From Deltaproteobacteria bacterium (GTDB taxonomy: Bacteria; Desulfobacterota; Syntrophia; Syntrophales; Smithellaceae): DNA of 48,031 nt. The notes below the pieces were generated by a model, which had not been told where the DNA came from, did no database searches, and saw only the letters and a program-made list of their open reading frames with translations. The stretch is taken from the NCBI GenBank assembly GCA_021372815.1, contig JAJFTS010000295.1, positions 1-48,031 of the forward strand, read 5' to 3'. A program made the translations under genes and the position numbers. Shown here in pieces: positions 9,953 to 33,518 of this stretch (position 1 is the first letter of the stretch; every line of letters begins with the position of its first letter).

Positions 9953-9977
9953 TAATATTCAATGAAAGGTTAAAAAT

Positions 9978-11528
9978 ATGAGCAACATTATTAATCGTGA
10001 TACCATCGGCGATATGGCCCGCAGGGCGGCAACAAAATACGGCGACAAGACTGCTATTATTTTTCGCGACGTAAAACTGTCTTTTTATGATCTGGAACGG
10101 GAAGCAAGGCGCTTTGCCAACCTCATGACCAGCTACGGAATTAAAAAGGGCGACAGAGTAGCCCTCTACGCGTATAACTCCCACTATTATCCGATCAGCA
10201 TGATGGGGCTTGCCAAAATCGGCGCCATACAGGTTCCTATCAACTATATGCTCAATGCCGAGGAAATAGCCTTCATCATCAATCATTCCGGCTCGAAGAT
10301 ATTTATTGTGGAGGACGCTCTCTTCCCCGCTATTGCCGATTGCCGGGATAAATTCCCTACTGTGGAGAAATGGGGCTTTATCCCTCTGGAAAACTCGGCC
10401 GTTCCCGAAGGATTTTTTAACCTGATAACGGAAATAGCCAAAATGACCTATGATGAGCCGCAGGTGGATGTCAGCGCGGAAGATATCGTGCAGATCCCTT
10501 ACACCAGCGGAACAGAATCAAAACCCAAAGGAGCCATGCTTTCGCACAGAGCGCTCATGTCGCAGTATCACAGCTGTATTTTTGACGGCCAGTATGAGAC
10601 GGACGATGTCAGTCTCCACGCCCTGCCCCTGTTTCATTGCGCCCAGCTCCATTGCTTTCTCATGCCCTATCTGTACGTCGGGGCCACCAATGTCATCATG
10701 CATAAGGCTGACCCCGCGGAAATGATCAGGCTCCTTGAAAAATATCAAATCACGCATATGTTCGCTCCACCTACGGTCTGGATTGGAATTCTGAATCATC
10801 CGGAATTCAACAATTACAATCACACCAGTCTGAAAAAGGCCGCCTACGGCGCAAGCATCATGCCGGTGGAAATCATCAAGCAATTGTCCGTCACCTTCCA
10901 CGGCCTGAAGCTTTGGAACTATTACGGTCAGACGGAAATGGGACCGGTGGCCACCATCCTGAAGCCTGAAGATCAGCTGCTGAAACCGGGGTCCGCCGGC
11001 AAACCCGTTCTGAACGTGGAAACTCGGCTGATGGATGACGACGGAAAATTCGTTCCTTTGGGAGAAGTGGGAGAAATCGTCCATCGCTCCGGCCATGTCA
11101 TGACCGGCTATCTGAATGATAATGAAAAAACCACAGACGCTTTCCAGTTCGGCTGGTTCCACAGCGGCGATTTGGGACGTTTTGACAATGACGGCTACCT
11201 CTATGTTGTTGACCGGAAAAAGGACATGATCAAAACCGGCGGCGAAAACGTAGCTTCCCGCGAAGTCGAAGAAGTGTTATACAGGCATCCGGATATTGAA
11301 GAAGCGGCCGTGATCGGCCTGCCCGATCCCAAATGGATAGAGATTGTGGCGGTTGTAGTCGTACCGAAGAAGGGCGTCTCTCTCAAAGAAAAAGACATTA
11401 TCGCCTTCTGCAAAGAGCATCTGGCCGGTTTTAAATGTCCCAAGAAAGTTTTCATTACCGGCAAACTTCCCAAAAATCCTTCGGGAAAGATTTTAAAGCG
11501 GGAGCTGAAACAACAATACAGTTCATAA
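9978..11528 (+). CDS. AMP-forming acyl-CoA synthetase (second paralog)
   Basis: A 516-residue adenylate-forming ligase, paralogous to the gene before it but clearly diverged. The phosphate loop reads PYTSGTESKPKGAMLSH near residue 174, the less common TSGTESxPKG form seen in some FadD subfamilies. YYGQTEMGPV follows near residue 315, then the hinge DRKKDMIKTGGENVASREVE near residue 412, and NPSGKILKREL at the C-terminus supplies the catalytic lysine. It starts 25 nt after the first ligase with an AAAGG ribosome binding site. Two ligases in tandem suggest different chain lengths or different acids of one pathway; that is inference. Confidence 0.9.
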   Translation: MSNIINRDTIGDMARRAATKYGDKTAIIFRDVKLSFYDLEREARRFANLMTSYGIKKGDRVALYAYNSHYYPISMMGLAKIGAIQVPINYMLNAEEIAFIINHSGSKIFIVEDALFPAIADCRDKFPTVEKWGFIPLENSAVPEGFFNLITEIAKMTYDEPQVDVSAEDIVQIPYTSGTESKPKGAMLSHRALMSQYHSCIFDGQYETDDVSLHALPLFHCAQLHCFLMPYLYVGATNVIMHKADPAEMIRLLEKYQITHMFAPPTVWIGILNHPEFNNYNHTSLKKAAYGASIMPVEIIKQLSVTFHGLKLWNYYGQTEMGPVATILKPEDQLLKPGSAGKPVLNVETRLMDDDGKFVPLGEVGEIVHRSGHVMTGYLNDNEKTTDAFQFGWFHSGDLGRFDNDGYLYVVDRKKDMIKTGGENVASREVEEVLYRHPDIEEAAVIGLPDPKWIEIVAVVVVPKKGVSLKEKDIIAFCKEHLAGFKCPKKVFITGKLPKNPSGKILKRELKQQYSS

Positions 11529-15320: not shown

Positions 15321-17279
15321 TCATCGCAGAATAGAGGCAATAGTATCGAGGCCGAGTTCCCTGAGCTTTTCTATAGTCGGCGTCCCCGTCCGGATATCCC
15401 ATCCACGCTCGTCGTAATAGTCGTCCAGCAGGTGTTCTATATCCTCAGCAGTTATTTTCTTCGTGCCATAACAATTTGTCAGAGCCTGCTCACCATCGGG
15501 TGTTTGGAGAGGCTTCAGCCATACTGGAGGGGGTGCATCCTCCGCCCGACCGAAACCTTCTCGTACGTTCAGCAACTTGTTCAGATTGAATACAGCTTCT
15601 CCACGTAATTTGAGCTCATTGGGTGAGATCTCGAAGCCGGTAGCGGCAGAGTATATTTCCGCAAGATTCTGAAAACCGATTAAATACATGCTCGACCAGA
15701 GGAAACATGTCCCCAGGCAGTTGTTGACGGCAGTAAGATCTTCGGTATGGCTGGTGAACCGGCCAAGATTATAATCACCATAATAGGGAACGGGTTGAAA
15801 AATGCGTTTCATGCGTTCTTCGGAAATGCATAGGGTTTCTGCCTCCATCTTAACATGCTCAAGTGTAAGATCAGGCAGGCCGGTTCCGGATCCGGATGTG
15901 CCAGCATGCCCACCCCTGGGGCTTGAAATGCCCATCGAAAATCGGACCGCATCGAGAACGGAAGCTCGTGCAGGGTAAATACAATCGCTGCCCTTTGCAA
16001 TGCCGCTGCCCTCCACATAATCCGATCGGGCATCCCTTCCCACCCATTTGGAAGTTTCAAACCATCCTTCTGCCAAGATGTTTCCGATCCCTTTCCGCTC
16101 AAGAATTGATTCCAGCAGATCCATATAGCCGGCAAGGTCGCGCTTCAACACCATGCCGCCAGTGTCACGTTGGGTAATGACATTCTCCTTGTAGCGCCGT
16201 GTCACCCAGTCCATGATGCCGAATGCGGTGACAAGGTCAATACCACTGCGGTTCATCTTCTCGATGAGCTTCACCGCTGCACCTACATCTGGAAGTTCGA
16301 ACCTTTGCCCTACGATGGGCACCCAAAGCATGAATCCGGTCTGCGAGTGCGCACCAGCGTGCTCTCCTTCCTTAATCTCCATGTCGTCACCGCAGTCCAG
16401 ATAGCAATGAGCACACGAGTTGCGCTTTCTGATTTGCACCGCTGGTTCAACGAATCTTTCATCCCATTCCGCGCGGCTTAGGATACCTGGATTCATATAG
16501 CGCGTATGCAGTTCTTTCAAACCAAATACAGTCACAGAACCTAGTGGCTTGATTTTGGCCTCATATTCTTCCCTAACCTCCCTGACGGCCTTGACAAACC
16601 TCGGTTTGTCGAAAATGTTAATTGCTCGATTGCCCCCCATGGCCACAATGGCTTTCAGATTCTTGGAACCCATCACTGCTCCAAGGCCTGAACGGCCCAA
16701 AGTGCTTTTCTTGTCAGTCAGAGCCATACTGTACCGGCACAAATTCTCACCGGCTTTTCCAATAGCAACAACACCGCATTTTCCGTAAGTATGTTTCAGT
16801 TCGTCAGTTGTTTCATAGATATCCTTCCCCCAGAGCATCCCCGCTGGACGGATTGAAACTTCCGCATCCGAAATTACCAGTACCACAGGCGCAGATGCGC
16901 GACCGGTAATCACAATATGGTCATACCCTGCTCTCTTCAATAAGAATCCGAATCCGCGACCGCCGCTGACCCCTGTGGACACGAAGAATCGGTTGTCTGG
17001 TGTGGCAGGTATTGCACCCTTGAAGGTGGCATATGTTTTGGCGGCCCCTGGTGCCAGGGTACCCACTAGAGGACCACTGCCAATAGTAATGGGATTCTCC
17101 GGCGAAAGCGGGTCGGTGCCAGATTTAAGTATATCAACCAGCAACCGGTAATTGACGCCACCGCCGCCGATGAACTGTCGGGCCATGTCCATATCGAGTG
17201 CTTCGTGGCAGACCTTTTTACTTGAGAGGTCTACATACAAAATTTTTCCCGTATAGCCACCATACTCTATATTTCCCAT
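15321..17279 (-). CDS. Aldehyde:ferredoxin oxidoreductase (tungstopterin family)
   Basis: A 652-residue AOR-family enzyme, which oxidises aldehydes to acids (or reduces acids) with ferredoxin, using a tungsten bis-pterin and one [4Fe-4S] cluster. N-terminal domain: GYTGKILYVDLSS, then FIGGGGVNYRLL and GPLVGTLAPGAAKTY. STGVSGGRGFGFLLKRAG and LGRSGLGAVMGSKNLKAI are typical pterin-binding segments. The cluster ligands are CAHCYLDC near residue 289 plus a Cys in NNCLGTCFLW near residue 525. The start is the ATG at 17279, with AGGAGG 6 nt upstream; a TTG two codons earlier is less likely. Ferredoxin and SCP2-like genes follow it. Related AOR-family enzymes act on substrates other than simple aldehydes, so the substrate is open. 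Confidence 0.92.
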   Translation of the reverse strand: MGNIEYGGYTGKILYVDLSSKKVCHEALDMDMARQFIGGGGVNYRLLVDILKSGTDPLSPENPITIGSGPLVGTLAPGAAKTYATFKGAIPATPDNRFFVSTGVSGGRGFGFLLKRAGYDHIVITGRASAPVVLVISDAEVSIRPAGMLWGKDIYETTDELKHTYGKCGVVAIGKAGENLCRYSMALTDKKSTLGRSGLGAVMGSKNLKAIVAMGGNRAINIFDKPRFVKAVREVREEYEAKIKPLGSVTVFGLKELHTRYMNPGILSRAEWDERFVEPAVQIRKRNSCAHCYLDCGDDMEIKEGEHAGAHSQTGFMLWVPIVGQRFELPDVGAAVKLIEKMNRSGIDLVTAFGIMDWVTRRYKENVITQRDTGGMVLKRDLAGYMDLLESILERKGIGNILAEGWFETSKWVGRDARSDYVEGSGIAKGSDCIYPARASVLDAVRFSMGISSPRGGHAGTSGSGTGLPDLTLEHVKMEAETLCISEERMKRIFQPVPYYGDYNLGRFTSHTEDLTAVNNCLGTCFLWSSMYLIGFQNLAEIYSAATGFEISPNELKLRGEAVFNLNKLLNVREGFGRAEDAPPPVWLKPLQTPDGEQALTNCYGTKKITAEDIEHLLDDYYDERGWDIRTGTPTIEKLRELGLDTIASILR

Positions 17280-17348
17280 CTCCAACCTCCTTTAACTGCT
17301 TGTTTAGTGGCAATTTAATTTTTAACACTTCCTGCACCAAAAGACTTT

Positions 17349-17495
17349 TTAAATAACTAAACGAACGAGAAAACTAAACGACCATACAACATATTTACCT
17401 ATAACCTTTTGTCTCATCTCCATAACCTCCCGCGGCATCTCATCCTTGAGATCTGGCCATGCAGGTGTTCTTATTACAATTTCCTTTTTTGCCAT
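17349..17495 (-). CDS. Unrecognised 48-residue ORF, possibly a truncated gene
   Basis: Begins MAKKEIVIRTPAWPDLKDEM and runs to a stop 69 bases before the AOR start. It has a good GGAGAGG ribosome binding site. The first 36 residues look protein-like (charged and amphipathic), while the last dozen turn hydrophobic and irregular, as if the reading frame had been broken. It lies just downstream of two gene fragments (17591-17894), so it may be the 5' end of another deleted gene. No family is recognised. Confidence 0.4.
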   Translation of the reverse strand: MAKKEIVIRTPAWPDLKDEMPREVMEMRQKVIGKYVVWSFSFLVRLVI

Positions 17496-17590
17496 GATCC
17501 TCTCCTTTCGGTTTTAGAATCCTGCTTTCCCTAATTAATAATGAAATTTCATTTGTGTCTCAATACTGTCCTAAGGCGGTTAAACCTTGC

Positions 17591-17786
17591 TTACTTAATC
17601 TTTTCAAGGATGTGGATAGTCATGGATACCTCTTCAAACGCGATATTTCCGCCTCCATTTTCCCCAAGAGCCAACCTCATGCCTGAACTGTGTTGCCAGC
17701 TCGTGGATCATGCCGAACCCTGAAGCTCCCACCGGATGCCCAGGAGATTCAAGGCCGCCTGAAGTGTTCAACGGAATTTTTCCGCT
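17591..17786 (-). pseudogene. Scar: C-terminal fragment of an SCPx-type thiolase
   Basis: The minus strand encodes [20 protein letters not shown]..., continues to [10 protein letters not shown], then jumps out of frame; the lost frame resumes with LALGENGGG and ends TIHILEKIK-stop. This matches the last 70 or so residues of the intact thiolase at 30463-31725 ([31 protein letters not shown]). A short deletion (roughly 25 nt) disrupts the frame and the whole N-terminal part is absent. Divergence from the intact gene shows it came from a paralog, not a recent copy. Directly upstream on this strand is a fragment of the kinase-like gene. Confidence 0.85.
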
Positions 17787-17788
17787 AT

Positions 17789-17894
17789 ATATTTAATCCT
17801 TACTTCCAGAGGCGCGACCACCAAAACACGAAGACAAATCTCTTTCGGGAGAAGGTAACTGGTGCCTCTGCCCAGAATAACAGCGTGTCCATGT
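17789..17894 (-). pseudogene. Scar: internal fragment of the cytidylate-kinase-like gene
   Basis: About 105 bases closely resemble 33930-34033 inside the kinase-like gene, including a run of identical bases around the ICLRVLVVAPLE codons. The fragment reads in frame as GHAVILGRGTSYLLPKEICL, then [14 protein letters not shown], and hits a stop just past the join with the thiolase fragment. Neither start nor end of the gene is present. The order kinase fragment then thiolase fragment on the minus strand is the same as for the intact genes at 34.4-30.5 kb. Confidence 0.85.
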
Positions 17895-17958
17895 TACCGT
17901 CAGAAGCATAAGGCTGAATTCTGGAAAACCGCACGAGTTTTCATTTGAACAGGAGTAA

Positions 17959-18522
17959 TTACGAATTCGTTTTAGCGGCTATTTTTTTAGCAAATGCCTC
18001 GGCATTTTTTAAATCCTGGACACTCGGGCGGCCTTTTTTTAAGCCGCCTAAACCTATTATTTTTGCTGCTCCAAAAGTGTCGAAGCCCGGACAATTAAAT
18101 TCTCCGATGACATCAAACCCTTTCGATTGCAGTTTGGCTTTAAGCGGGTTGTGATAAAGATTTACGAAGAATTTCGATGTCAAACCGCTGGTGGTAAATA
18201 TAAACGCCTTTTTATTCTTTAATGGTGGGAATCTGTCGATAAATTGAAACAGACAAGGGTGAAGTTTAAAATAGTATGCCCCTGAGCCGAATCCGATCAA
18301 ATCATAGCCGGCAAGAACTTTTGAATCAATTTGTTCCAGTTTCGTTACATTCCATCTGTCATGCGGTCTCCCCCTCCAGAGAGTCTTATAATATGAATTA
18401 TGGGCATCAGCGGTATCCAAAACCATGTTTTTCATATCCGCTTCAAGATTTTTAGCTAAAACCCTGGCTACTTGTTCAGTATTATTATGATGACCTGAAA
18501 CATAAACAATGAGACTTTTCAT
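17959..18522 (-). CDS. Flavodoxin-family protein
   Basis: A 187-residue protein with a flavodoxin-like FMN-binding fold: beta-strand plus phosphate loop LIVYVSGHHNNTEQVARVLA at residues 4-23, GYDLIGFGSGAYYFKLHP near residue 75, and KKAFIFTTSG near residue 105. It is close in size to the flavodoxin/flavoprotein group often found in anaerobes. The ATG at 18522 has GGGGAG 7 nt upstream; an ATG two codons earlier (18528) is too close to that site. It follows the CoA-disulfide-reductase-like gene by about 60 nt and is probably a low-potential electron carrier for the island's enzymes. Confidence 0.8.
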   Translation of the reverse strand: MKSLIVYVSGHHNNTEQVARVLAKNLEADMKNMVLDTADAHNSYYKTLWRGRPHDRWNVTKLEQIDSKVLAGYDLIGFGSGAYYFKLHPCLFQFIDRFPPLKNKKAFIFTTSGLTSKFFVNLYHNPLKAKLQSKGFDVIGEFNCPGFDTFGAAKIIGLGGLKKGRPSVQDLKNAEAFAKKIAAKTNS

Positions 18523-21805: not shown

Positions 21806-23110
21806 TTAGATTTGAAATTGTTTCTTCAGCGAAAAAAGTATTTTATTCCCCGATACCCGCCTGATGTATCCGTGTTCGTCCAGTACTCTGGTGACAAGAA
21901 CATCCGGACGTGACGGGAATGGGAGGCGCTTCTTTAAGTTGGTTTCCGGAGTATCCATTTTGAACCATTCTTGAACAATATCCGGAATAGCCGCTTCACC
22001 CATTTTAGAAATAGTCTGGAGGACATCCCGTTTCATGCCCGAATAAAACTTTTCATATGTCCCGAAGAATTCGATGCATTGCTCCTCGCCTCTTACACAA
22101 TCCTCCAGTTGCAGCGGACTAAGAATAAACTGATCCATATTCAACATATGCATTGCATCACTCATAAAAGTTTTGCTTCTATGGGCATCGGATGCCAACG
22201 TGATAAAACCCTGTTCCGCCATGCGCCGAAACGCTCTGGCCGCGCCAATGCATCTATCGAAATTACTGTCGAAGAAGGGGGGGTTGATCTCAACCGTAAC
22301 ATCACCGCTCAACATGAGGCGATTTAAAGGATCGTAAAGACATACGTGTCCGGGGCTATGCGAGCCGTCATGGATAATAAAGAAACGTCCCACTTGCCAT
22401 CCATAGAATTCCGTATCCCCGTAAGTTCTCTTTTCGCGAGAGCTAAGAGGAAGAATTTCGGCCCTCTCGGCAAGATTTCGTTTGTTTCCGATAAGCAGAC
22501 GGTCAATCAAAAGTCTTAAGGCGGTTCTGTAGTCTTCATGTTTGGAATTGGCATCGAGCTTATTTATCGCATGCCATAAAGGACGATACTGAGGTTCTGA
22601 ATATTCAGCGAAGTTCTTTGCATACGTTTCAATCTCCTTCCAGAGAGTTGACCATTCCGGATATGGATTGAAAAACGCTTCCAATTTGCGGAAATCCCCA
22701 AGCCAATGGTATTGACATTCAATCACCGGGACTTCCGGTTCGGGAAGCAGAAATCGCACATTCTCGAAGCCCGCATCAAGGACAACTGAATTGTTAAGCG
22801 CATGATCCCAATGCCCCTGTGAATCCATTAGAATCAGCGTCTTGCATCCCGCTGACGAATACTTGCGGAGCACTTCAAGTATTCTTGTTCTGTAGAAAGG
22901 CTGCATGCCGGCATCAAACATGAACACAATATCTTTATCCCGCAATATGTAGACATTAGCCGAGGGTGGACAAAGAAAGAACGAGAAGCCGAGTGAACCT
23001 TCTATTTGCCAGACATCATGAGCGATTTCACGGACGGCAGACCTGGCGAATGTTTCTTCCATTTTTGGAAAATGGAACGGGTGAAGTTTTTCTGGATAAT
23101 CATCATTCAT
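21806..23110 (-). CDS. MBL-fold metallohydrolase with a variant zinc motif
   Basis: A 434-residue metallo-beta-lactamase-fold protein. Visible motifs: the pre-motif strand TLILMDS, then QGHWDH near residue 120 in place of the usual HxHxDH, so the first zinc-ligand His is Gln; HDGSHSPGHVCLYD near residue 250; LMLSGDVTVEINPPF; and SDAHRSK near residue 315. A helical C-terminal part resembles the extra helical region of large MBL hydrolases. The start at 23110 has GGAGG 6 nt upstream; a longer in-frame form to 23248 would overlap the ligase gene. It follows the AMP-forming ligase directly. Possible roles are thioesterase or lactonase, but none is shown. Confidence 0.8.
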   Translation of the reverse strand: MNDDYPEKLHPFHFPKMEETFARSAVREIAHDVWQIEGSLGFSFFLCPPSANVYILRDKDIVFMFDAGMQPFYRTRILEVLRKYSSAGCKTLILMDSQGHWDHALNNSVVLDAGFENVRFLLPEPEVPVIECQYHWLGDFRKLEAFFNPYPEWSTLWKEIETYAKNFAEYSEPQYRPLWHAINKLDANSKHEDYRTALRLLIDRLLIGNKRNLAERAEILPLSSREKRTYGDTEFYGWQVGRFFIIHDGSHSPGHVCLYDPLNRLMLSGDVTVEINPPFFDSNFDRCIGAARAFRRMAEQGFITLASDAHRSKTFMSDAMHMLNMDQFILSPLQLEDCVRGEEQCIEFFGTYEKFYSGMKRDVLQTISKMGEAAIPDIVQEWFKMDTPETNLKKRLPFPSRPDVLVTRVLDEHGYIRRVSGNKILFSLKKQFQI

Positions 23111-23210
23111 AAAATACCTCCATTCATTAATTTTCTGTTCATAAGAGCAACTGAATTTCAAAAAGACAAAATAATCATATATTGTCTTAATAATGGCATT
23201 AGAATGTCCT

Positions 23211-24770
23211 TTATGCCTCCGCATCGTAAGTATCCTGGGTGACACCAATGGATTTCAGTTCACCTTTCTTGATCCGGAATGTTTCTGTACGGGGAAAATC
23301 ATCAATGATCCTGATGTATCTCGGGATCGCAAACTTCGCGAGCTTGTCCTGGAGAAAGTCGAAGATTTCCCTGCCTGATAGTTTTTCCCCCTCCACCAGT
23401 TTAACCGATGCCATAATCTCGTCCTCGGTCATTTCGGAAGGCACCGCATAGACCGCGGCTTCCAGCACGGACGGATGCTTGAGAATGGCCTGCTCCACAT
23501 CGTAAGCAGATACGTTCTCCCCTCTTCGACGCATGGAATCCGTACTGCGGCCGACAAAATAGATGTACCCCTGCTCGTCCTGATACACGAGGTCGCCGGT
23601 GTACTCCCATTCGCCCCGTGTCTTCTCAACTGATGCATTGGGATTCTTGTAGTACTCCACCGTACTCTTCTTGTTCCGGTCCACCTTGAACAGCAGTTCA
23701 CCTGTTTCGCCTGTCAGGACCTCGTCACCATGGACGTTCACGAGCTTGATGATTGAATTGAGCGGTTTGCCGATGGAACCCTTGGGACCGTCGCCGAAAT
23801 TCGCGATGAATCCCGATCCATCAATGGCTGCGTAGGCCTCCCATATCTTCACCCCGAATCTGTTCTCAAAAGGCTGCCAGAGTATTGCCGGACATCCTGC
23901 AGACATCACTTTTTCCACCTTGTGATTCCTCTCATATGGACTTTCCGGCTGCTTCATAAGGATGGGTATTATGGCGCCAATAGTATTGAAGACCGTGGCC
24001 CCGGATTTTACGATTTCCTCCCAGAACCTGCTGGCCGAGAAACGCTTCGAGAGTGCCACGGTACACCCCATAATGAGCGATGTCGTAGTTGTCACATACA
24101 GGGCGTTTCCGTGAAAGAGCTGCAGAGCGGTATAGTAGACTGAATCGGGTTTGAGGAGAATGGGGGCAAGCATCTTGAGCTTGTCAACGATGTTTTTGTT
24201 GTACCGCATAACCACGCCCTTGGGTAATCCGGTGGTTCCGGAGGTATACATGAGCATAAGGATGTTATTCTCATCAAACTTAACATCAGGTTTCGTAATC
24301 GAAAGGTCGGCCGCGTAGGCATCCTTCAGGTCAATCATGCCCTCGGGTATCTTGACTCCATCAGGCGCTTCCAGCGTGTTCACGAACACCCATTCCACCT
24401 TGGACAGCCTGCTTTTCACGGTCTGATATATTTCAATGAGATCGTAGTCCACCACCAAGTATTTCGTGTCGCTGTTATCAATGGTGTAGACGAGCTGGTC
24501 GCCCCTCAGCGATGTATTCACCGTGTTCACGTACATCCCGATCTTCTGGATGCCGAAAAAGATATCGAGGAACTGGGGTGAGTTGTTCATGAGAGTGGCA
24601 ATACCATCAGCCGGCTTTGCCCCGATCCTTAGCAGATAGTTCGCTATCCTGTTTGCATTCAGGTCCATCTCTGCATATGAAATGGTGCGGTCCTGATACA
24701 CCAGATATAAGAATGGCTTATCCTTCAGTTTCATTGCCTGATCTTCGAGAAGTGTTGCCCAATTGACCAT
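23211..24770 (-). CDS. AMP-forming acyl-CoA synthetase (CaiC/FATP-like)
   Basis: A 519-residue adenylate-forming ligase that would activate the pathway's carboxylic acid substrate to its CoA ester. The phosphate loop is MYTSGTTGLPKGVVMRYNKN near residue 173. AYAAIDGSGFIANFG takes the place of the usual YGxTE. The hinge GRSTDSMRRRGENVSAYDVE near residue 410 has the RRRGENVS form shared by carnitine-CoA ligase and fatty acid transport protein types, and ETFRIKKGELK near residue 500 gives the catalytic-type lysine. AAGGAGA lies 6 nt before the ATG. It sits in the middle of the island's minus-strand cluster. A second ligase once existed nearby (scar at 21529-21636). Confidence 0.9.
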   Translation of the reverse strand: MVNWATLLEDQAMKLKDKPFLYLVYQDRTISYAEMDLNANRIANYLLRIGAKPADGIATLMNNSPQFLDIFFGIQKIGMYVNTVNTSLRGDQLVYTIDNSDTKYLVVDYDLIEIYQTVKSRLSKVEWVFVNTLEAPDGVKIPEGMIDLKDAYAADLSITKPDVKFDENNILMLMYTSGTTGLPKGVVMRYNKNIVDKLKMLAPILLKPDSVYYTALQLFHGNALYVTTTTSLIMGCTVALSKRFSASRFWEEIVKSGATVFNTIGAIIPILMKQPESPYERNHKVEKVMSAGCPAILWQPFENRFGVKIWEAYAAIDGSGFIANFGDGPKGSIGKPLNSIIKLVNVHGDEVLTGETGELLFKVDRNKKSTVEYYKNPNASVEKTRGEWEYTGDLVYQDEQGYIYFVGRSTDSMRRRGENVSAYDVEQAILKHPSVLEAAVYAVPSEMTEDEIMASVKLVEGEKLSGREIFDFLQDKLAKFAIPRYIRIIDDFPRTETFRIKKGELKSIGVTQDTYDAEA

Positions 24771-24842: not shown

Positions 24843-27377
24843 TTATTTCGGCCCCAGCCATTCCACCTTGGGAAAATCCCTCGGCACGGCGCCATCGGTC
24901 CGCACTGCGGGATAACCCAGGAGGATGAACATGGCCGGCTTGTCGTACGGCCATTTGAGTCCGAGCCTTTTTTTGAACCTGAGTTTGGTTCTCATGTCCT
25001 TGTTGATGGTGTTGGCAGCCAAGCCAACATAGCAAGTGCCCAAGCCTAATGAATGCGCAGCCAGCACCATACTGTGGCATATGATTCCCATGCCGAGTTC
25101 CTTGTCGGATATGTGCAGAGCATGAGGAACCACCATGATGGTGCACGGGGCGTCGAAGAAGGCATGCAACGCCCCTTCCCCGAATTGCGGGGACAAAAGA
25201 CCTGCTATAGCCGCCATGGGGCGTCGATCAAAGGAGTTGGGATATAGCATGCACAATATTTTCTTAAGCTGATTCATGCCGAAATTCTTCTTTGTGTATA
25301 GGTTTGAGAATATGCCGAGAAACTTCCCTGTAGCTTCGCTGAGTTCGTCCATGAGTCCGCGGTCGGTTATCACGATAAACTTCACACCTAAACCATTGCC
25401 GGCCGTGGGAGCAAACCGACCCGCTTCCAGCACCCGTTCAATTATTTCCCTGGGCACGGGGTCAGGCTTGAATATACGCACGCTTCGGCGGGTGTAGATG
25501 ACCCTTTCGGTCTCGGTGATCTTCGACTCAATCTCCTTAAAGGGCACTGGCCTTGGCAGCCTCAATGGGTTGGGCAGACCGTCTTCGAGATGCACGGGAA
25601 TATCGAGTTCGGTTGCCCACCGTCCTTCATCCACACGGTAAAATGTTTTCATTGTTATTGCGCCCTGCGGACAAATAGCATCGCAGTCATGGCACGCAAG
25701 GCACACCTTGCCGAAGTATGGATTCTTATACAGATGCGTGTACTCCACCTTGTAGGTACCACACTGGATGCACCGCTTGCTCTCGCTCATCACCTGGGTT
25801 GCACTCAAAGGAATTCCTTCCTCCGCATCCGGGTTGAGAAGACGATCCCTGACATCGAGTTTGCCGCCGTCGATGCGGGCTATTTCCCGGTACTCTTCGA
25901 GGTGTCGCAGCCTTTCCATAAAAGGGACATTCTTAAAATTGATCTCTTTCTTTTCAGGAATTTCGAGTTTCACATCACGGATGAAGGCATCAATGCCCAA
26001 GGCTGCTTTGCGGCCTGCACCGATGGCCTCGGTCACCAGGCCGGGACCGTCCACCGCGTCACCGCCCGCAAACACATTCTTGTCTGCCGTCTGACCAAAG
26101 GTGTCCGCTCCTATCCAATCCCCTTTGCCCTCGAGGCTTTCAATGCCTGCACCCACGAGGCACTGACCGACAGCCGTGATGAGAGTGGAAAAGTCCACTT
26201 CAAATTCACTGCCCTTGACAGGCACCGGCCTACTTCTTCCGGATGAGTCCTTTTCCCCGAGTTCCATCTTCTGACAGACGGCCTTGTTCTCTTTCACCTT
26301 CACCGGCACGCACAGGACCTTGATATTTACCCCTTCGTCCATGGCCGCCTCCACTTCTGCGGCATGGGCGGGCATCTCAGCTCTGGTTCTCCGGTAAAGT
26401 ATGGTCACGTCCGAACCCATTCTTCGGGCTGTACGCGCTGCATCGAGTGCCGTGTTGCCGCCACCCACCACCACCGTCTTTTTCCCTATCCTGGGCTCCT
26501 TGCCTTCCTTCACACTCCTGAGAAAAGCCAGACCGGAGAGTACGTTGTTGCTGTCTTCATCCGGAATGTTCATGGAAAGGCCATCCTGAGCACCGATGGC
26601 AAGATAAACCGCTTTGAATTCCTTTTTCAGACTGTCAAGAGTGATATCCTTGCCAAGAGTGGTGTTCACCTTCAAGGTAACTCCCAGGTCGATGATCCTT
26701 TGGATCTCCTTCTCCACAACTTTTACGGGAAGCCGGTATTCGGGAATGGCGTAAGTGAGCATACCGCCGGGTTTCGGATTCGCCTCGAATACGGTCACGC
26801 TATATCCCATAAGTGCAAGCTGGTAGGCACACGACAGTCCGGAGGGTCCGGATCCCACTACCGCCACCTTAATGCCGTTCATCTTTATGGGCTTTTCGAA
26901 ACACAGGCTCTGCTCTATCGCGTAATCACCCACGGCGCGTTCGATGCAGTTAATATTCACCGGCTTGTCAAGACACCCTCTGTTGCAGACACTTTCGCAG
27001 GGGTGGGGACACACCCGGCCCGTGACAGCCGGAAACGGGTTCGTCTTCGTGAGAACCTTCCAGGCATGGTCATAGGAACTTCCTCCAGCGATAAGATTCA
27101 AGTATTTCCGCACATTGATACCCGAAGGGCAGGCATTCTGGCAGGCCGGTTCCTGAAGCTCCGAGGGCTTTTCTCTCCGGGTTATGGAAAGCGTCTGGGA
27201 GGGACACTGCATAATGCAGATGCCGCAACCGATGCACTTGTCCTCGTTGAGATCGATGTCCATGGGCGCCGTGGCCACCTCGGGGTCGTTCATGATACGG
27301 AATTTGGAAGGCTTAGGAGTCCTCTGCTGAAACTCAATACCCCCTGTTGTTTCTCGTCTTTCGTTTTTTAATGACAT
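24843..27377 (-). CDS. Fusion: FeS / GltD-like FAD-NAD(P) oxidoreductase / nitroreductase
   Basis: An 844-residue multidomain redox protein. In order: a [4Fe-4S] motif CIGCGICIMQCP at residues 48-59; a GltD/DPD-type FeS domain (CQNACPSGINVRKYL, then RVCPHPCESVCNRGC) over about 75-135; FAD-binding VAVVGSGPSGLSCAYQLA near 172; NAD(P)-binding KTVVVGGGNTALDAARTA near 300; an FeS pair CIQCG near 545 and CLACHDCDAICP near 570; and an FMN nitroreductase domain from about 640 (YTRRSVRIFKPDPVPREII, APTAGNGLG, GLGTCYVGLA). NAD(P)H-driven transfer through FeS and FAD to an FMN site would let it reduce an electron carrier or an enone-like substrate. It lies immediately after the two acyl-CoA dehydrogenases, so it may exchange electrons with them. 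Confidence 0.9.
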   Translation of the reverse strand: MSLKNERRETTGGIEFQQRTPKPSKFRIMNDPEVATAPMDIDLNEDKCIGCGICIMQCPSQTLSITRREKPSELQEPACQNACPSGINVRKYLNLIAGGSSYDHAWKVLTKTNPFPAVTGRVCPHPCESVCNRGCLDKPVNINCIERAVGDYAIEQSLCFEKPIKMNGIKVAVVGSGPSGLSCAYQLALMGYSVTVFEANPKPGGMLTYAIPEYRLPVKVVEKEIQRIIDLGVTLKVNTTLGKDITLDSLKKEFKAVYLAIGAQDGLSMNIPDEDSNNVLSGLAFLRSVKEGKEPRIGKKTVVVGGGNTALDAARTARRMGSDVTILYRRTRAEMPAHAAEVEAAMDEGVNIKVLCVPVKVKENKAVCQKMELGEKDSSGRSRPVPVKGSEFEVDFSTLITAVGQCLVGAGIESLEGKGDWIGADTFGQTADKNVFAGGDAVDGPGLVTEAIGAGRKAALGIDAFIRDVKLEIPEKKEINFKNVPFMERLRHLEEYREIARIDGGKLDVRDRLLNPDAEEGIPLSATQVMSESKRCIQCGTYKVEYTHLYKNPYFGKVCLACHDCDAICPQGAITMKTFYRVDEGRWATELDIPVHLEDGLPNPLRLPRPVPFKEIESKITETERVIYTRRSVRIFKPDPVPREIIERVLEAGRFAPTAGNGLGVKFIVITDRGLMDELSEATGKFLGIFSNLYTKKNFGMNQLKKILCMLYPNSFDRRPMAAIAGLLSPQFGEGALHAFFDAPCTIMVVPHALHISDKELGMGIICHSMVLAAHSLGLGTCYVGLAANTINKDMRTKLRFKKRLGLKWPYDKPAMFILLGYPAVRTDGAVPRDFPKVEWLGPK

Positions 27378-27421: not shown

Positions 27422-28555
27422 TTAAGCGCTGATCTCTCTGATCAGCGAAAGCTTCCTGAGCGGGACAAGGCCGAGAAGTGCCTGCACCTGCCGTGCATCG
27501 CGGTAACGCTTCTCCTGACCGTAATCTTTCATGTAGCCGTTGCCGCCAAGGACCTGTATCCCGTCGGTCACTACTTCACAGGCCATCTCATGGACGTGGA
27601 TTGCCGCGGCCATGCTGTAGACGCCCCAATCAGGAATACCGGCCTCGATTCCCTGGCAAGTTCCGGCAACACACATGTCAACTGCCTTGCTCTTCACCGT
27701 CATATTGGCCAGAATCATCCTCACCTCACTCCAGTTCACGATAGTCCAGCCGCCCTGCTCCCGTTCCTTTGCATAGTCCATGGCCTCTTTGAGTGAGCCC
27801 TTCATGATCCCGGAAGAGATGGCCGCAGTGGCTACATGCAATACTTTGGAAGCCTTGTTGAAGTACTTTTCCCCTTCTCCCTCCTCACCGAGGAGCTGGG
27901 CGTTCACACCGTCAAAGGTGATGTCCACAATGGGGCAGGCGTGAAGTCCAAGGCTGAAGATGGGGGCGCTTTTTCTGACAGCCTTGTCTTTCAGGTCAAC
28001 AAGGAAGAACGAATATCCCTGTTTTCCCGACACCTTCGCCGGAATGACCGCCCAGTTGGTGAAATTTCCCAAAACCAGGTAATCCAGATTGCCTGTGAGC
28101 TTGTAGTCCTTGCCCGAGATTGCTGCCTGAGGCAAGGTGACGACCTGGCCGGGATTGGTGAAGGAAGGGAAGGAAATGAAATAATCTTGAGCAGTCTTCG
28201 CCTGTGGAAACAGCTTCTTGGCCGTCTTATCGGCACCGGCTGCGAGGATGACCTCCTGGGACAGCGAACTGGTGAAGATGATCAGAGAATAGGACGCATC
28301 CACCTCGGCCACGTGGCCGAGCATCATACACAGAGCACTGATCCCCTGCCCGATGCCGTTGTATTCTTCCGGCAGCATGATGCCGAGGAATCCCAGATCA
28401 TAAATCTTCCGGAAATTGCTCTCGATGATCTCCGCGTCCCGGCTGTCGTAGGGATAGCGGTCGTTTTTTTCCACATGGGGCTTGAGCTCTTCCCTGGCAA
28501 ATTCCGTTATCAGATCTTCAAAAGGTTTCAAATCTTTGTTCAATGCAGTTATCAT
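27422..28555 (-). CDS. Acyl-CoA dehydrogenase-like protein with degenerate active-site motifs
   Basis: A 377-residue acyl-CoA dehydrogenase-fold protein: N-terminal helical domain (GFLGIMLPEEYNGIGQG near residue 56), middle beta domain, and a C-terminal helical domain ending near GGNGYMKDYGQEKRYRDARQ. Two signatures are missing. The TEPxAGSD flavin/substrate motif reads SFTNPGQV, and the YEGT segment with the catalytic Glu reads LLGL. The alternative Glu position used by isovaleryl-CoA-type enzymes also seems to be Leu. It starts 10 nt after the neighbouring full-length dehydrogenase with AAGGAGG upstream, so the two are probably made together and may form a heteromer. Alternatively it binds FAD but no longer oxidises acyl-CoA. 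Confidence 0.85.
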   Translation of the reverse strand: MITALNKDLKPFEDLITEFAREELKPHVEKNDRYPYDSRDAEIIESNFRKIYDLGFLGIMLPEEYNGIGQGISALCMMLGHVAEVDASYSLIIFTSSLSQEVILAAGADKTAKKLFPQAKTAQDYFISFPSFTNPGQVVTLPQAAISGKDYKLTGNLDYLVLGNFTNWAVIPAKVSGKQGYSFFLVDLKDKAVRKSAPIFSLGLHACPIVDITFDGVNAQLLGEEGEGEKYFNKASKVLHVATAAISSGIMKGSLKEAMDYAKEREQGGWTIVNWSEVRMILANMTVKSKAVDMCVAGTCQGIEAGIPDWGVYSMAAAIHVHEMACEVVTDGIQVLGGNGYMKDYGQEKRYRDARQVQALLGLVPLRKLSLIREISA

Positions 28556-28565
28556 GGCATCCTCC

Positions 28566-30074
28566 TTACTCTTCAAAAATTTTAGCCTTGGGACAAGCCG
28601 GGGCAATGAGACTCTTGAATACATTGATCCGATTAAGCTGATTGGTGCCTTCGTAAATCTGAAGAAGCTTGGCGTCCCGGAGGATCTTCTCCATCCCATT
28701 CTCGTGTCTCATGCCGGTTTGTCCCATGAGTTCCAGGGCTATCTGGCAGTTCTTTACGCCGATGTCCGTGCCGTTGAACTTGGCCAGTGATCCCAGGCCG
28801 GTGCAGAGATGCTGGTCCTCGGGCTTCTGACCATCGAGATACCATTTGCTCATGAGCCAAGTGCCTATCGATCTGTTGGTGAGCAGGGGAGAAAGAACGT
28901 TGTTGAAGAATGCCAAGGGCAAATATTTCAGATAATAGTAGATGGGCTTCATCTGGAGGATGTTGTAGACCCCGCGATGCTGATTTGCCAGGTTGGCTTC
29001 AGCATAGGCAAGCCGACCAAGCCTGACATTGGAGTACATCTCAGCAAGTCTACACTGAACCCATTCGTAGCTGATCATGGGTTTTCCGTCGATCTCGGCC
29101 TCGTTGGCAAATCTTAGCGCCGCCTCAAATGCGCCGCGGGCCGCGGATGTGCCAAACGATCCTACAACCGGCCGTGAAAGGGACAAGACATAGTCTAAAT
29201 GGCGCATCTTGACATCCCGGCTCTTCTGCTTAGTGAATCCCTTCGCCCTTTCCGGGTCCAATATCACCAACTCGTCCGGCACGAAGCAATCTTCAAAGTT
29301 GAGTACGTCGGCCGTGCAGATTCGCTGTCCCATCTTGTTCTCATGGGTTCCATAGGTAAATCCCTTCATACCCTGTTTGACCATCATGACCACCGTGTTT
29401 TCCGAAGACTTCTTCAGGTTCGTGTAGCCATAAAGCACTGTCCACTTGGAAAGACGTCCCATGGAAATGAATATCTTAGTGCCGTTCACGATGTAGCCGC
29501 CCTTGACTTTCCGGACATGGCAGGTGATCTTACCCCGGTCCTCGAGTTCGATCTCCTCGACATCTGTTCCCGCCATAGGCTCCGTGATGGCCAGCGCTAT
29601 GAGGCACGGATCGCCGGTCTTCTCTCCCTGCACCACATCGTTCATAACCTTTTTAATGACTCTGGTATTGCCTGCCATCATCAGGCCCGCTACGCCAAGG
29701 TAGTGCACACCGATCACGTTGGCAATACCGAGACACACGGAGCCGATCTCTTCCGAGAAGTACGCTATGGAGGGCATGTTGTAGCCTTTGCCTCCGAAGA
29801 CTTTGGGCATCCACATGGTGTAGAAACCCCACTCGTTGGCCTTCTTCACCAAATCCCAGGGCAGGAATTCCGGGTTCTCATGGGTTTTTCTATCTAGCTC
29901 CAGAAACAGTGGGCGCGCTATCTCGTCATTGAATTTCCGGGCAAGAGCCACAATTTTCTGAGTCTCCTTCACCATGGCTTTGGGCATCCGGGGCGCGTAA
30001 TGGATTGACAACACTTCATCCCTGAAATCGGGATATCGCGATATGAACGATTTCACCTGTGATCGTGTCAGCAT
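28566..30074 (-). CDS. Acyl-CoA dehydrogenase
   Basis: A 502-residue FAD acyl-CoA dehydrogenase that introduces an alpha,beta double bond into an acyl-CoA. N-terminal helical domain with YTMWMPKVFGGKGYNMPS near residue 85; the flavin/substrate motif ALAITEPMAGTDVEE near residue 155; C-terminal domain with ELMGQTGMRHENGMEKILRD and LQIYEGTNQLNR, where the Glu of YEGT is the expected catalytic base. It is longer than the usual 380 residues, with the additions mainly in the middle and C-terminal parts. The ATG at 30074 has GGAGG 4 nt upstream; a longer in-frame form to 30212 lacks protein-like sequence. It sits next to a degenerate partner dehydrogenase. Confidence 0.9.
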   Translation of the reverse strand: MLTRSQVKSFISRYPDFRDEVLSIHYAPRMPKAMVKETQKIVALARKFNDEIARPLFLELDRKTHENPEFLPWDLVKKANEWGFYTMWMPKVFGGKGYNMPSIAYFSEEIGSVCLGIANVIGVHYLGVAGLMMAGNTRVIKKVMNDVVQGEKTGDPCLIALAITEPMAGTDVEEIELEDRGKITCHVRKVKGGYIVNGTKIFISMGRLSKWTVLYGYTNLKKSSENTVVMMVKQGMKGFTYGTHENKMGQRICTADVLNFEDCFVPDELVILDPERAKGFTKQKSRDVKMRHLDYVLSLSRPVVGSFGTSAARGAFEAALRFANEAEIDGKPMISYEWVQCRLAEMYSNVRLGRLAYAEANLANQHRGVYNILQMKPIYYYLKYLPLAFFNNVLSPLLTNRSIGTWLMSKWYLDGQKPEDQHLCTGLGSLAKFNGTDIGVKNCQIALELMGQTGMRHENGMEKILRDAKLLQIYEGTNQLNRINVFKSLIAPACPKAKIFEE

Positions 30075-30462
30075 ACCACCTCCAATTTTTTTTGTATTCC
30101 CAGCGTCTTTATAGCGTTGGATATGTCTTCGGCATGAATATCGTGATTTGCCGTTCGTTGGAGCAACGTGCCTGTTCCATACAACTGGTCTTGCAGAAGG
30201 TTTTTGCAACACCGTGACGCCGATATTGCTTCTCTTAGAATCAATGTGGATGCTATATCCGGCAGGAAACGATTCTTGCAGCCGAACACGCTTCCGGATC
30301 AGGTAATGGTAACAGTCCTTGTTTTGAATCTATTGATGAAACGCCCCTTGAATGCTGAATCAAGAACTCAATGCACTCATTTCTCCTGTTGAGGAGACGA
30401 CCAGGCAGCCATCCCAAGTTGCCACATGGTCGTGAAGGCTATTAAAAGCAATGACTTGTTCC
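30075..30462 (-). other. Gap between thiolase and dehydrogenase genes; one tiny ORF
   Basis: No confident gene. On the minus strand a 29-codon ORF (30377-30466, MRNKSLLLIAFTTMWQLGMA...) starts in an ATGA overlap with the thiolase stop and looks like a signal or membrane peptide, but it is too short to judge. A GTG-initiated 73-codon frame (30068-30289) runs into the dehydrogenase gene and has no recognised family. The gap is large for an otherwise tight cluster and may be where a gene was lost. Confidence 0.35.
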
Positions 30463-31725
30463 TCATTTCCCGTTCATTCGTTCGAGGATATGTATAGTCA
30501 TGGAAGCCTCTTCAAAGGCGAGATTGCCTCCTCCGTTTTCCCCGAGGGCCAGCCTGCATCCTTTCACCTGCCGGGATCCTGCTTCATGTCTGAGCTGAGT
30601 CACCAGTTCATGGATCATGCCGAGCCCGGAAGCCCCCACCGGATGTCCGCGCGACTCGAGTCCGCCTGAGGTGTTGATGGGAATCTTCCCTCCCAACTTC
30701 GTGGCTCCGCTCTCCGCAAAGGCACCCCCTTCACCGATCCTGCAGAATCCCAGTGATTCGCTCTGGTGAAGTTCACCGAATGCAGTGGCGTCATGAACCT
30801 CCGCAGTGTCGATGTCTTCAGGCCCTACTCCTGCAAACTCATATGCCTGTCGCGACAGCCTCACCGCGATATCCTGATCAAGCTTGTCATACGACCTGTT
30901 CGTGCCCGACCCCAGCACCGACGCTCTGATTTTTACCGGTCTGGGATTCTTCAACTTCTTCAGGAAATCTTCGGAACACACGATAGCCGCTGCGGCACCG
31001 TCACCCACAGGTGCGCACATCGGAACGGTAAGCGGCCAGACAACGGACCGCCCGTTCAGGATCTCTTCAGCAGTCATAATCTTCTGGAACTGGGCATTTG
31101 GATTCATGGAACCGTGAAAGTGGTTCTTGGATGCAATGACTGCGAGCTGTTGCCGGGTAGTTCCGAATGTGGCCATGTGCCACCTGATTCCACTGGCATA
31201 TACGTCCATAAAGGCGCTTCTTGTCTTTCCTGCCCCTGCTCCACCGTCATCCTCAGGGATCTCGAACTTCATCCCCTCCATGATGCTCCTCAGGTTTTTG
31301 ATGTGCCCCTCCAGGTTGGACACATCTACCCCTGCGTTGAAAGCCATCATGGTCTTACCCTTGTCCTCGTTGTAAAGCTTTTCCATGCCCATGGCCAACG
31401 AGCACTCATACATACCTCCTGCCACGTCTTTGTATGCGCTGTGCAGCGCGGTGGACCCGCAGGCACAGGCGTTCTCCACATTTGTGATCGGTATGCCCTC
31501 AATTCCCAGGGGTCTTAAGGCCACCTGCCCTCTGATCGAGTGTTGCATATTAAAGAAGCCCCAGGACGTGTTTGCAAAAAACGCAGACTGAATATCGCTG
31601 ACCTTCACTTCCGTCGCGTCCTTGATCACATTTTCGAATGCCATTGCCACAAGATCCTTCTCGCTCTTGTCCATGTGCTTGGTAAACTTAGTCATGCCCA
31701 CCGCAATAATGTAAACATCTCGCAT
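30463..31725 (-). CDS. SCPx-type thiolase (lipid-transfer protein family)
   Basis: A 420-residue thiolase-fold protein. The nucleophile lies in ENACACGSTALHSAY (Cys near residue 87). The family marker VHDATAFGELHQSESLGFC replaces the NEAFA loop of degradative thiolases and matches the HDxF...E...LG pattern of SCPx/Ltp thiolases. The C-terminal [18 protein letters not shown] carries the expected His. SCPx-type enzymes cleave branched or bulky 3-ketoacyl-CoAs, and some partner with a DUF35 protein to act as aldolases; no DUF35 gene is present here. The start at 31725 has GGAG 8 nt upstream. It is the first gene behind the sigma-54 promoter. A decayed paralog is at 17591-17786. Confidence 0.9.
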   Translation of the reverse strand: MRDVYIIAVGMTKFTKHMDKSEKDLVAMAFENVIKDATEVKVSDIQSAFFANTSWGFFNMQHSIRGQVALRPLGIEGIPITNVENACACGSTALHSAYKDVAGGMYECSLAMGMEKLYNEDKGKTMMAFNAGVDVSNLEGHIKNLRSIMEGMKFEIPEDDGGAGAGKTRSAFMDVYASGIRWHMATFGTTRQQLAVIASKNHFHGSMNPNAQFQKIMTAEEILNGRSVVWPLTVPMCAPVGDGAAAAIVCSEDFLKKLKNPRPVKIRASVLGSGTNRSYDKLDQDIAVRLSRQAYEFAGVGPEDIDTAEVHDATAFGELHQSESLGFCRIGEGGAFAESGATKLGGKIPINTSGGLESRGHPVGASGLGMIHELVTQLRHEAGSRQVKGCRLALGENGGGNLAFEEASMTIHILERMNGK

Positions 31726-31799
31726 AAAAACCACTCCTTTCGCTTGTCATGGAGAAAAACGCCCTTTTACGATTATCCCCATACATTTTCGTAAAGAAC

Positions 31800-31815
31800 A
31801 GCAAGCAGTGTGCCA
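31800..31815 (-). promoter_or_regulatory. Sigma-54 (-24/-12) promoter of the island operon
   Basis: On the minus strand TGGCACACTGCTTGCT matches the consensus TGGCACR-N4-TTGCW at every fixed position. The -24 GG is at 31814-31813 and the -12 GC at 31802-31801, so transcription should start near 31790, about 65 nt before the thiolase ATG. The divergent gene at 31977 encodes a sigma-54 activator. Confidence 0.88.
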
Positions 31816-31976: not shown

Positions 31977-33518
31977 ATGATTCTTTTGGAAAAAAATGCA
32001 GGCGAAACTCTTATACGCCAGATTTTGAACAGTCAAGATCCGGAAACGGCCATAAACGAAGTCTTTAGATTCATCAGAAAATATCTCCCTCTGGACTTCA
32101 TGACCCTGCCTGTTTACGACTCCCGGAGGGGCATCCTGCGCTACAGAGCATTCACCAACAATGAGGGTGTGTTCTTCACCGACGAGCCCGTCCGGCTGTC
32201 CAAAGATGCCAAAAAAGAAGCTGACAGAATCATGCACCAGAAAATGAAATTCTTCGAAAGCTACCTCGATAATCCTGTCTCGAAAACAGTCACCAGCTAT
32301 TTCGGCCTAAAAGAGCAAGATGTCTGCAGTGGCATCTCGGTCTTCACAGATCTGGGATCATCCCGATATGGCGTCCTGTCCTTCGCAGCCCGAGGGAGAA
32401 ACAGGCACACACCGGAGCATCTTAGAATTATCGAGGAACTGTATGGATCTATTACTGAAGTGACACGGCATATTTTGTCTCAGATGGAAATTGTGAACCT
32501 CAAGGAATACATCACTCTGGTGAACGAGGAAATCAGAGAACGATTCATGGGACGCCGCATCATTGGGTCCACCACCGGCCTTAAAGAAGTGTTGACGTTG
32601 GTGGAGCAGGCCGCCCCCCTCGATATACCCATCCTCATCACAGGCGAAACCGGAGTGGGCAAGGAAGTAGTGGCCAGTATCATCCATCAGCGTTCGAAAC
32701 GTTCCGATGGCCCCATGATCAGCATCAACTGCGGCGCCATACCCGATACTCTGCTGGACAGCGAGCTCTTCGGCCACGAAAAGGGTGCGTTCACCAGTGC
32801 CGACGCCATGAAGCAGGGATATTTCGAGAGGGCCGACCGGGGCACTATCTTCCTTGACGAGATCGGTGAACTTACCCTGCAGGCCCAGGTAAAACTGCTT
32901 CGCGTTATTCAGGATATGACTTTCCAGCGTGTAGGCGGCAAAAGGTTCATCACCGTGGATGTGCGGGTAATTGCCGCTACAAACCGTAATCTCGAAAGCC
33001 TCATAGCAGAACTTCAGTTCAGGAAAGACCTGTGGTTCAGACTCAATGTATTTCCCATTCAGGTTCCACCGCTACGGGAGCGCCTGATTGACATTCCCGC
33101 CCTTGCGGTTTACTTCGCAAGACGGCAGACCATCGAGATGAATCTTCCCTACCAGCCACGGTTCGCGACTGGCGCCATGGAGCAGCTTCAAGCCTATGAC
33201 TGGCCCGGCAATGTCCGGGAGTTGCAAAACGTCATTGAACGGGCGCTTATCACTAATCGTGGAGAACCCATGACATTCCCGAACCTGGCAGGCACATCTC
33301 CTGCTGAACCGACTATCGCGGCTCTGCCGGAAGATACCTCCTATCCTACTCTTGATGAAATAACAGCGCGGTATATCCGACAGACCCTCATGAAAACGGG
33401 CGGCCGGATATCCGGTAAGGGAGGAGCGGCAGATTTACTCGGAATGAACCCGTCCACGCTTAGATCGCGGATGAGGAAGCTCTATATTAAAGTTAAAAAA
33501 ATTCCCGGAAACCCTTGA
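31977..33518 (+). CDS. Sigma-54-dependent transcriptional activator with N-terminal GAF-like domain
   Basis: A 513-residue enhancer-binding protein. Residues about 10-165 form a GAF-like sensor. The AAA+ domain spans about 193-420, with Walker A GETGVGKE at 223-230, Walker B IFLDEIGE at 291-298, and the sigma-54 contact loop reading GAFTSA (270-275) instead of GAFTGA. YDWPGNVRELQNVIERA follows near residue 405. The C-terminus has a Fis-type helix-turn-helix (GKGGAADLLGMNPSTLRSRM near residue 480). AGGAGG precedes the ATG. It is divergent from the thiolase operon, whose promoter is a sigma-54 type, so it is the likely activator. The GAF-like domain probably binds a pathway metabolite, but there is no direct evidence for which. 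Confidence 0.92.
   Translation: MILLEKNAGETLIRQILNSQDPETAINEVFRFIRKYLPLDFMTLPVYDSRRGILRYRAFTNNEGVFFTDEPVRLSKDAKKEADRIMHQKMKFFESYLDNPVSKTVTSYFGLKEQDVCSGISVFTDLGSSRYGVLSFAARGRNRHTPEHLRIIEELYGSITEVTRHILSQMEIVNLKEYITLVNEEIRERFMGRRIIGSTTGLKEVLTLVEQAAPLDIPILITGETGVGKEVVASIIHQRSKRSDGPMISINCGAIPDTLLDSELFGHEKGAFTSADAMKQGYFERADRGTIFLDEIGELTLQAQVKLLRVIQDMTFQRVGGKRFITVDVRVIAATNRNLESLIAELQFRKDLWFRLNVFPIQVPPLRERLIDIPALAVYFARRQTIEMNLPYQPRFATGAMEQLQAYDWPGNVRELQNVIERALITNRGEPMTFPNLAGTSPAEPTIAALPEDTSYPTLDEITARYIRQTLMKTGGRISGKGGAADLLGMNPSTLRSRMRKLYIKVKKIPGNP

Follow-up and report, generated by a model that had tools for sequence, protein, structure and literature searches.

The window, meaning the whole stretch of DNA that was analysed, is the 48,031-nt contig JAJFTS010000295.1 of a Deltaproteobacteria bacterium placed in the Smithellaceae (GCA_021372815.1). 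Genes for a thiolase, two adjacent acyl-CoA dehydrogenases (ACADs; here α and β), an 844-aa fusion protein, an acyl-CoA ligase and a metallo-beta-lactamase-fold protein follow one another on the reverse strand, divergent from a gene for a sigma-54-dependent activator:

31977-33518, + strand: divergent sigma-54-dependent activator (domain and NCBIfam matches)
31801-31815, - strand: TGGCACACTGCTTGC, a sigma-54 -24/-12 promoter-like site ahead of the thiolase gene; no other place in the window matches with 0 mismatches
30463-31734, - strand: SCP2-type thiolase (domain and NCBIfam matches)
28566-30074, - strand: α subunit, acyl-CoA dehydrogenase, predicted catalytic half, 502 aa (ORF, Pfam, alignment, AlphaFold)
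27422-28555, - strand: β subunit, degenerate acyl-CoA dehydrogenase, predicted FAD-ADP-binding half, 377 aa (ORF, Pfam, alignment, AlphaFold)
24843-27377, - strand: 844-aa fusion of 4Fe-4S ferredoxin, GltD-like NAD(P)/FAD oxidoreductase and nitroreductase domains (domain matches)
23211-24770, - strand: acyl-CoA ligase, AMP-binding (domain and NCBIfam matches)
21806-23248, - strand: metallo-beta-lactamase-fold protein (domain match); the ORF is listed from a TTG, and translation may in fact begin further downstream

In many sister loci, separate genes encode what in the fusion are the nitroreductase and ferredoxin parts; crotonase and SDR genes are additional members of sister loci. The gene set looks like an inducible sigma-54-type beta-oxidation operon. 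An open frame of 76 codons (30068-30298, - strand) lies between the thiolase and α genes and overlaps the α start codon (TATGCTGA); it could encode a short protein or be a protein remnant.

Both subunits belong to the ACAD superfamily: Pfam, AlphaFold and PDB matches, taken together, recover two helical domains, one N-terminal and one C-terminal, with a beta domain in the middle. β is a genuine ACAD by its Pfam matches, PF02771 and PF00441 being over the cut-off and the middle domain, PF02770, being below detection by sequence. The AlphaFold models of α and β have the ACAD fold, with mean pLDDT of 90.5 and 90.3 and Z scores of 41 and 44 to solved ACADs, respectively; residues 339-342 of β, in the FAD loop, are the only reported stretch with pLDDT <50.

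The original prediction held that α keeps two catalytic signatures of the superfamily and that β, its close neighbour, has lost them. Both readings are borne out: TEPMAGTD stands at residues 164-171 and YEGT at residues 474-477 of α, and β, separated from α by 10 nt, has SFTNPGQV at 131-138 and LLGL at 360-363. The relevant positions are as follows:

29562-29585, - strand: α TEPMAGTD, FAD pyrophosphate/substrate loop, kept (TEP in 59/60 and GTD/GSD in 59/60 α sequences)
28821-28985, - strand: α-specific 55-aa insertion, LQxKPxYYYxKxxP, three predicted helices (AlphaFold model, conservation)
28644-28655, - strand: α YEGT with the predicted catalytic base Glu475, at the MCAD E376 position (Glu in 60/60)
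28142-28165, - strand: β SFTNPGQV, shorter sequence in place of the lost TEPxxGSD loop (loop deleted in practically all 59 β sequences)
27761-27763, - strand: β Arg265, FAD-binding Arg kept, A326 in α (Arg in 59/59 β and 1/60 α sequences)
27542-27556, - strand: β QVLGG (Q334, G337, G338), FAD-binding motif kept, ELMGQ in α (Gln and Gly-Gly in 59/59 β sequences)
27467-27478, - strand: β LLGL in place of YEGT, base lost (L/M/F in 59/59)

What the original prediction overlooked is that α is degenerate as well, with A326, E448 and Q452 where the FAD residues Arg, Gln and Gly are expected. The 55-aa insertion of α is conserved and is placed between two helices of the C-terminal domain, where it could reshape the contacts within the tetramer or serve as a docking site for a partner.

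It is established for MCAD that every FAD of an ordinary ACAD dimer is placed between two subunits. We take one MCAD subunit to supply the TEPxxGSD loop and Glu376, and its partner to supply Arg281, Gln349 and Gly353. Residue roles were carried over from MCAD through an alignment of 60 α sequences, 59 β sequences and 11 canonical ACADs from the same and related genomes. The base Glu is present in all 60 α sequences and TEP in 59, and the partner-FAD positions hold Arg in 1, Gln in 4 and Gly in 1 of the 60. Every β sequence has the Arg, Gln and Gly-Gly (59/59), none has the base Glu, and the TEPxxGSD loop is lost. Complementarity across the two sets is thus nearly perfect, whereas the 11 canonical ACADs keep both sets of residues, apart from isolated exceptions, for example a Ser at the base position of an IVD-like protein (L004). 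As judged from aligned residues, a single FAD site is divided between two proteins.

The same alignment bears on whether α could work alone, as a self-sufficient homo-oligomeric dehydrogenase, with β a separate non-catalytic protein such as a regulator or carrier-binding scaffold. α does retain the base and the flavin loop, and two genomes carry an extra α (in tandem or at a contig edge). A homodimer of α, however, would need the partner-FAD residues that α has lost, and β retains precisely those. This arrangement is also hard to reconcile with gene distribution, since neither α nor β occurs alone in any of 61 related genomes, and we regard it as improbable.

A base elsewhere in β was looked for among the 59 sequences and not found. 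The claim that β has no Glu at the alternative-base (IVD/LCAD) column holds throughout the family: the column is M, L or F in 59/59 β sequences and L in the window protein. In α this column is T or S, the base Glu being that of YEGT. The only invariant Glu of β is E348, the structural Glu of the (V)E(R/K)xxRDA motif, present in ordinary ACADs. Gly replaces the usual Phe284 beside the FAD Arg in 59/59 β sequences, so the FAD half of β is itself partly non-canonical.

With both catalytic signatures gone, β might also be a decaying duplicate on its way to becoming a pseudogene. That explanation is ruled out by conservation, β and its invariant FAD residues being kept at dozens of loci, and by dN/dS values of 0.06-0.19 (about 0.06-0.18 for α), which indicate purifying selection on both subunits and show that the losses in β are conserved rather than due to chance; we give it next to no weight.

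Relatives of β were found at 57 loci on genome contigs, most of them in MAGs of Smithella/Syntrophaceae and other Deltaproteobacteria, and some in Actinomycetota and Spirochaetes; no plasmid relatives were found at E 1e-40. α adjoins β in nearly all loci and in both gene orders, the order being reversed in Actinomycetota. The 61 related genomes divide into 13 with both genes and 48 with neither. The only uninterrupted locus with β and without a neighbouring α (L055) belongs to a genome that has exactly one α and one β of the family, on different contigs. Distances among α and among β sequences are correlated (mirror-tree r = 0.90, 58 pairs), although linked, co-inherited genes alone would give much of this value. 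One Spirochaetes locus (L054) holds two α-β pairs of the same family within about 10 kb (8438-11092 and 15831-18464), which suggests diversification by substrate.

Taken together, α and β very probably form an obligate hetero-oligomeric acyl-CoA dehydrogenase, probably α2β2, with one composite FAD site per α-β pair. α would give the isoalloxazine and substrate side, namely the TEPxxGSD loop, the Ser/Thr after the loop and the base Glu, and β would contribute Arg, Gln and Gly-Gly, which grip the ADP half of FAD. Each α-β pair would then have one composite working site and, at the reciprocal place, an inactive one. Glu475 of α is predicted to take the α-proton of the acyl-CoA while the β-hydride passes to FAD; the enoyl-CoA product would undergo hydration, SDR oxidation and SCP2-type thiolysis. 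We infer complex formation, the α2β2 particle, one FAD per pair, and the direction, substrate and electron acceptor of the reaction.

Steroid-degrading actinobacteria provide the closest architectural parallel, and the original prediction had tied the pair to their enzymes. In ChsE4-ChsE5 the isoalloxazine is bound by the α subunit, which also has the Glu and the substrate site, and the ADP-ribose moiety by the β subunit; ChsE1-ChsE2 divides its FAD site in the same way (PMC11153573). Steroid subunits were represented in our comparison by the solved PDB chains 4x28_A, 4x28_D, 6wy8_A and 6wy8_B, that is, ChsE4-ChsE5 (FadE26-FadE27, PDB 4X28) and Thermomonospora Tcur3483-Tcur3481 (6WY8), and the division of the FAD site is visible in their alignment. 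Like the window pair, these are encoded by adjacent or paired genes, with an α that has TEPxxGTD and the substrate side and lacks Arg and Gly-Gly, and a β that has Arg and Gly-Gly and Leu for the base Glu. The steroid α subunits differ from the window α in having Glu at the IVD/LCAD position (LNHER) and FGGGTNE or FGGGVNE for YEGT, whereas the window α has an intact YEGT, the base at the MCAD position and the 55-aa helical insertion. The pairs also differ in operon and in the anaerobic hosts of the window family, whose α and β fall in clades of their own.

The pair could nevertheless be a true steroid-type α2β2 ACAD (ChsE1-ChsE2/ChsE4-ChsE5/IpdE1-IpdE2) of an organism that degrades sterols or bile acids. 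The shared division of the FAD site and the same Glu-to-Leu loss in β would fit, as would two neighbours, the SCP2-type thiolase and a protein with an SCP2 domain. In the tree, α and β each form their own clade with 100% support, and the deep branching relative to the steroid subunits was not resolved; joint clades with the steroid subunits were not rejected (AU p 0.39 and 0.40), so common ancestry stays compatible with the data and an independent origin is possible. The position of the α base and the strongly supported clades that α and β form of their own weigh against membership, and the NCBIfam matches of the two proteins include neither IpdE2 nor any other steroid-ACAD model. Steroid heterotetramers are absent from the best 50 PDB fold matches of either subunit, where ordinary ACADs come first, which is no argument against relatedness. 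We consider steroid-type membership slightly less probable even than an α that works alone.

The original prediction therefore stands in part. A hetero-oligomeric ACAD with a catalytically dead subunit in an anaerobe is strongly supported by residue complementarity, co-occurrence, tree co-variation and the predicted folds; the tie to the steroid enzymes holds for architecture only, since the α base position differs and no common clade was resolved. The window pair probably has a ChsE4-ChsE5-like architecture and belongs to what is probably a separate, previously undescribed anaerobic family; no report of the α-β pair in Smithella was found in the literature searched.

Other ACADs share features with the pair. 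The pimeloyl-CoA dehydrogenase PimC/PimD, a suspected heterotetramer, and dicarboxylate pairs related to it are likewise encoded by adjacent ACAD genes in degradation operons (PMC12543098). Against the PimC/PimD models β scores 40 and 33 bits, far below the cut-offs of 624 and 653 (NCBIfam TIGR03204 and TIGR03203, respectively), and α is not listed. MCAD-type homotetramers (1UKW, human MCAD) share the fold of both subunits and the base position of α, but carry both half-sites on each subunit, unlike α or β.

The same genome contains a second, different adjacent ACAD pair (contig 109, 16908-18507; L006/L007/L096). In one member TEPGSGSD and FEGT are retained and the Arg, Gln and Gly are gone; its partner has kept RVQFG and QILGG, shows NEPRFKFD where the loop would be, and still has Glu at the base position. 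This pattern is conserved over homologues in the genus and in two other genera, and from these motifs the pair is likely a second heteromeric ACAD. On a more speculative reading, a second complementary pair in the genus would mean that splitting of the FAD site between subunits evolved repeatedly. The window pair indicates that the heteromeric architecture reaches beyond steroid degraders, and its residue rule, one half-site kept per subunit, can spot heteromeric ACADs annotated as two dehydrogenases of which one is seemingly dead.

In methanogenic settings, Smithella-type syntrophs break down fatty acids and hydrocarbons by means of enzymes that are poorly known. The ligase and SCP2-type thiolase of the window operon are compatible with branched or cyclic acids as substrate, and the "bulky" acyl-CoA of the original prediction is plausible from operon content. 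The complex might instead work reductively, as an enoyl-CoA reductase with electrons from the ferredoxin and nitroreductase proteins, a reading that keeps the composite site and overlaps the best explanation. In its favour, genes for ferredoxin and nitroreductase recur next to the pair and, in the window, are joined to a GltD-like module, but the thiolase, ligase, crotonase and SDR neighbours suit degradation; the reductive direction is unlikely, though less so than a self-sufficient α. A broader proposal, tentative and rather doubtful at present, is that a separate lineage of obligate heteromeric ACADs with an MCAD-position base had an origin in strict anaerobes unconnected with the steroid enzymes, and that in syntrophs it oxidises branched or cyclic acyl-CoAs together with a ferredoxin/nitroreductase electron module.

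Glycyl-radical enzymes were sought in the genome as a hint to substrate; several are PFL-like, and 0 reach the glycyl-radical-enzyme equivalog cut-off. On contig C295 of this genome (G000; L090), a PFL-type glycyl-radical enzyme is encoded in one reading frame with its activating enzyme.
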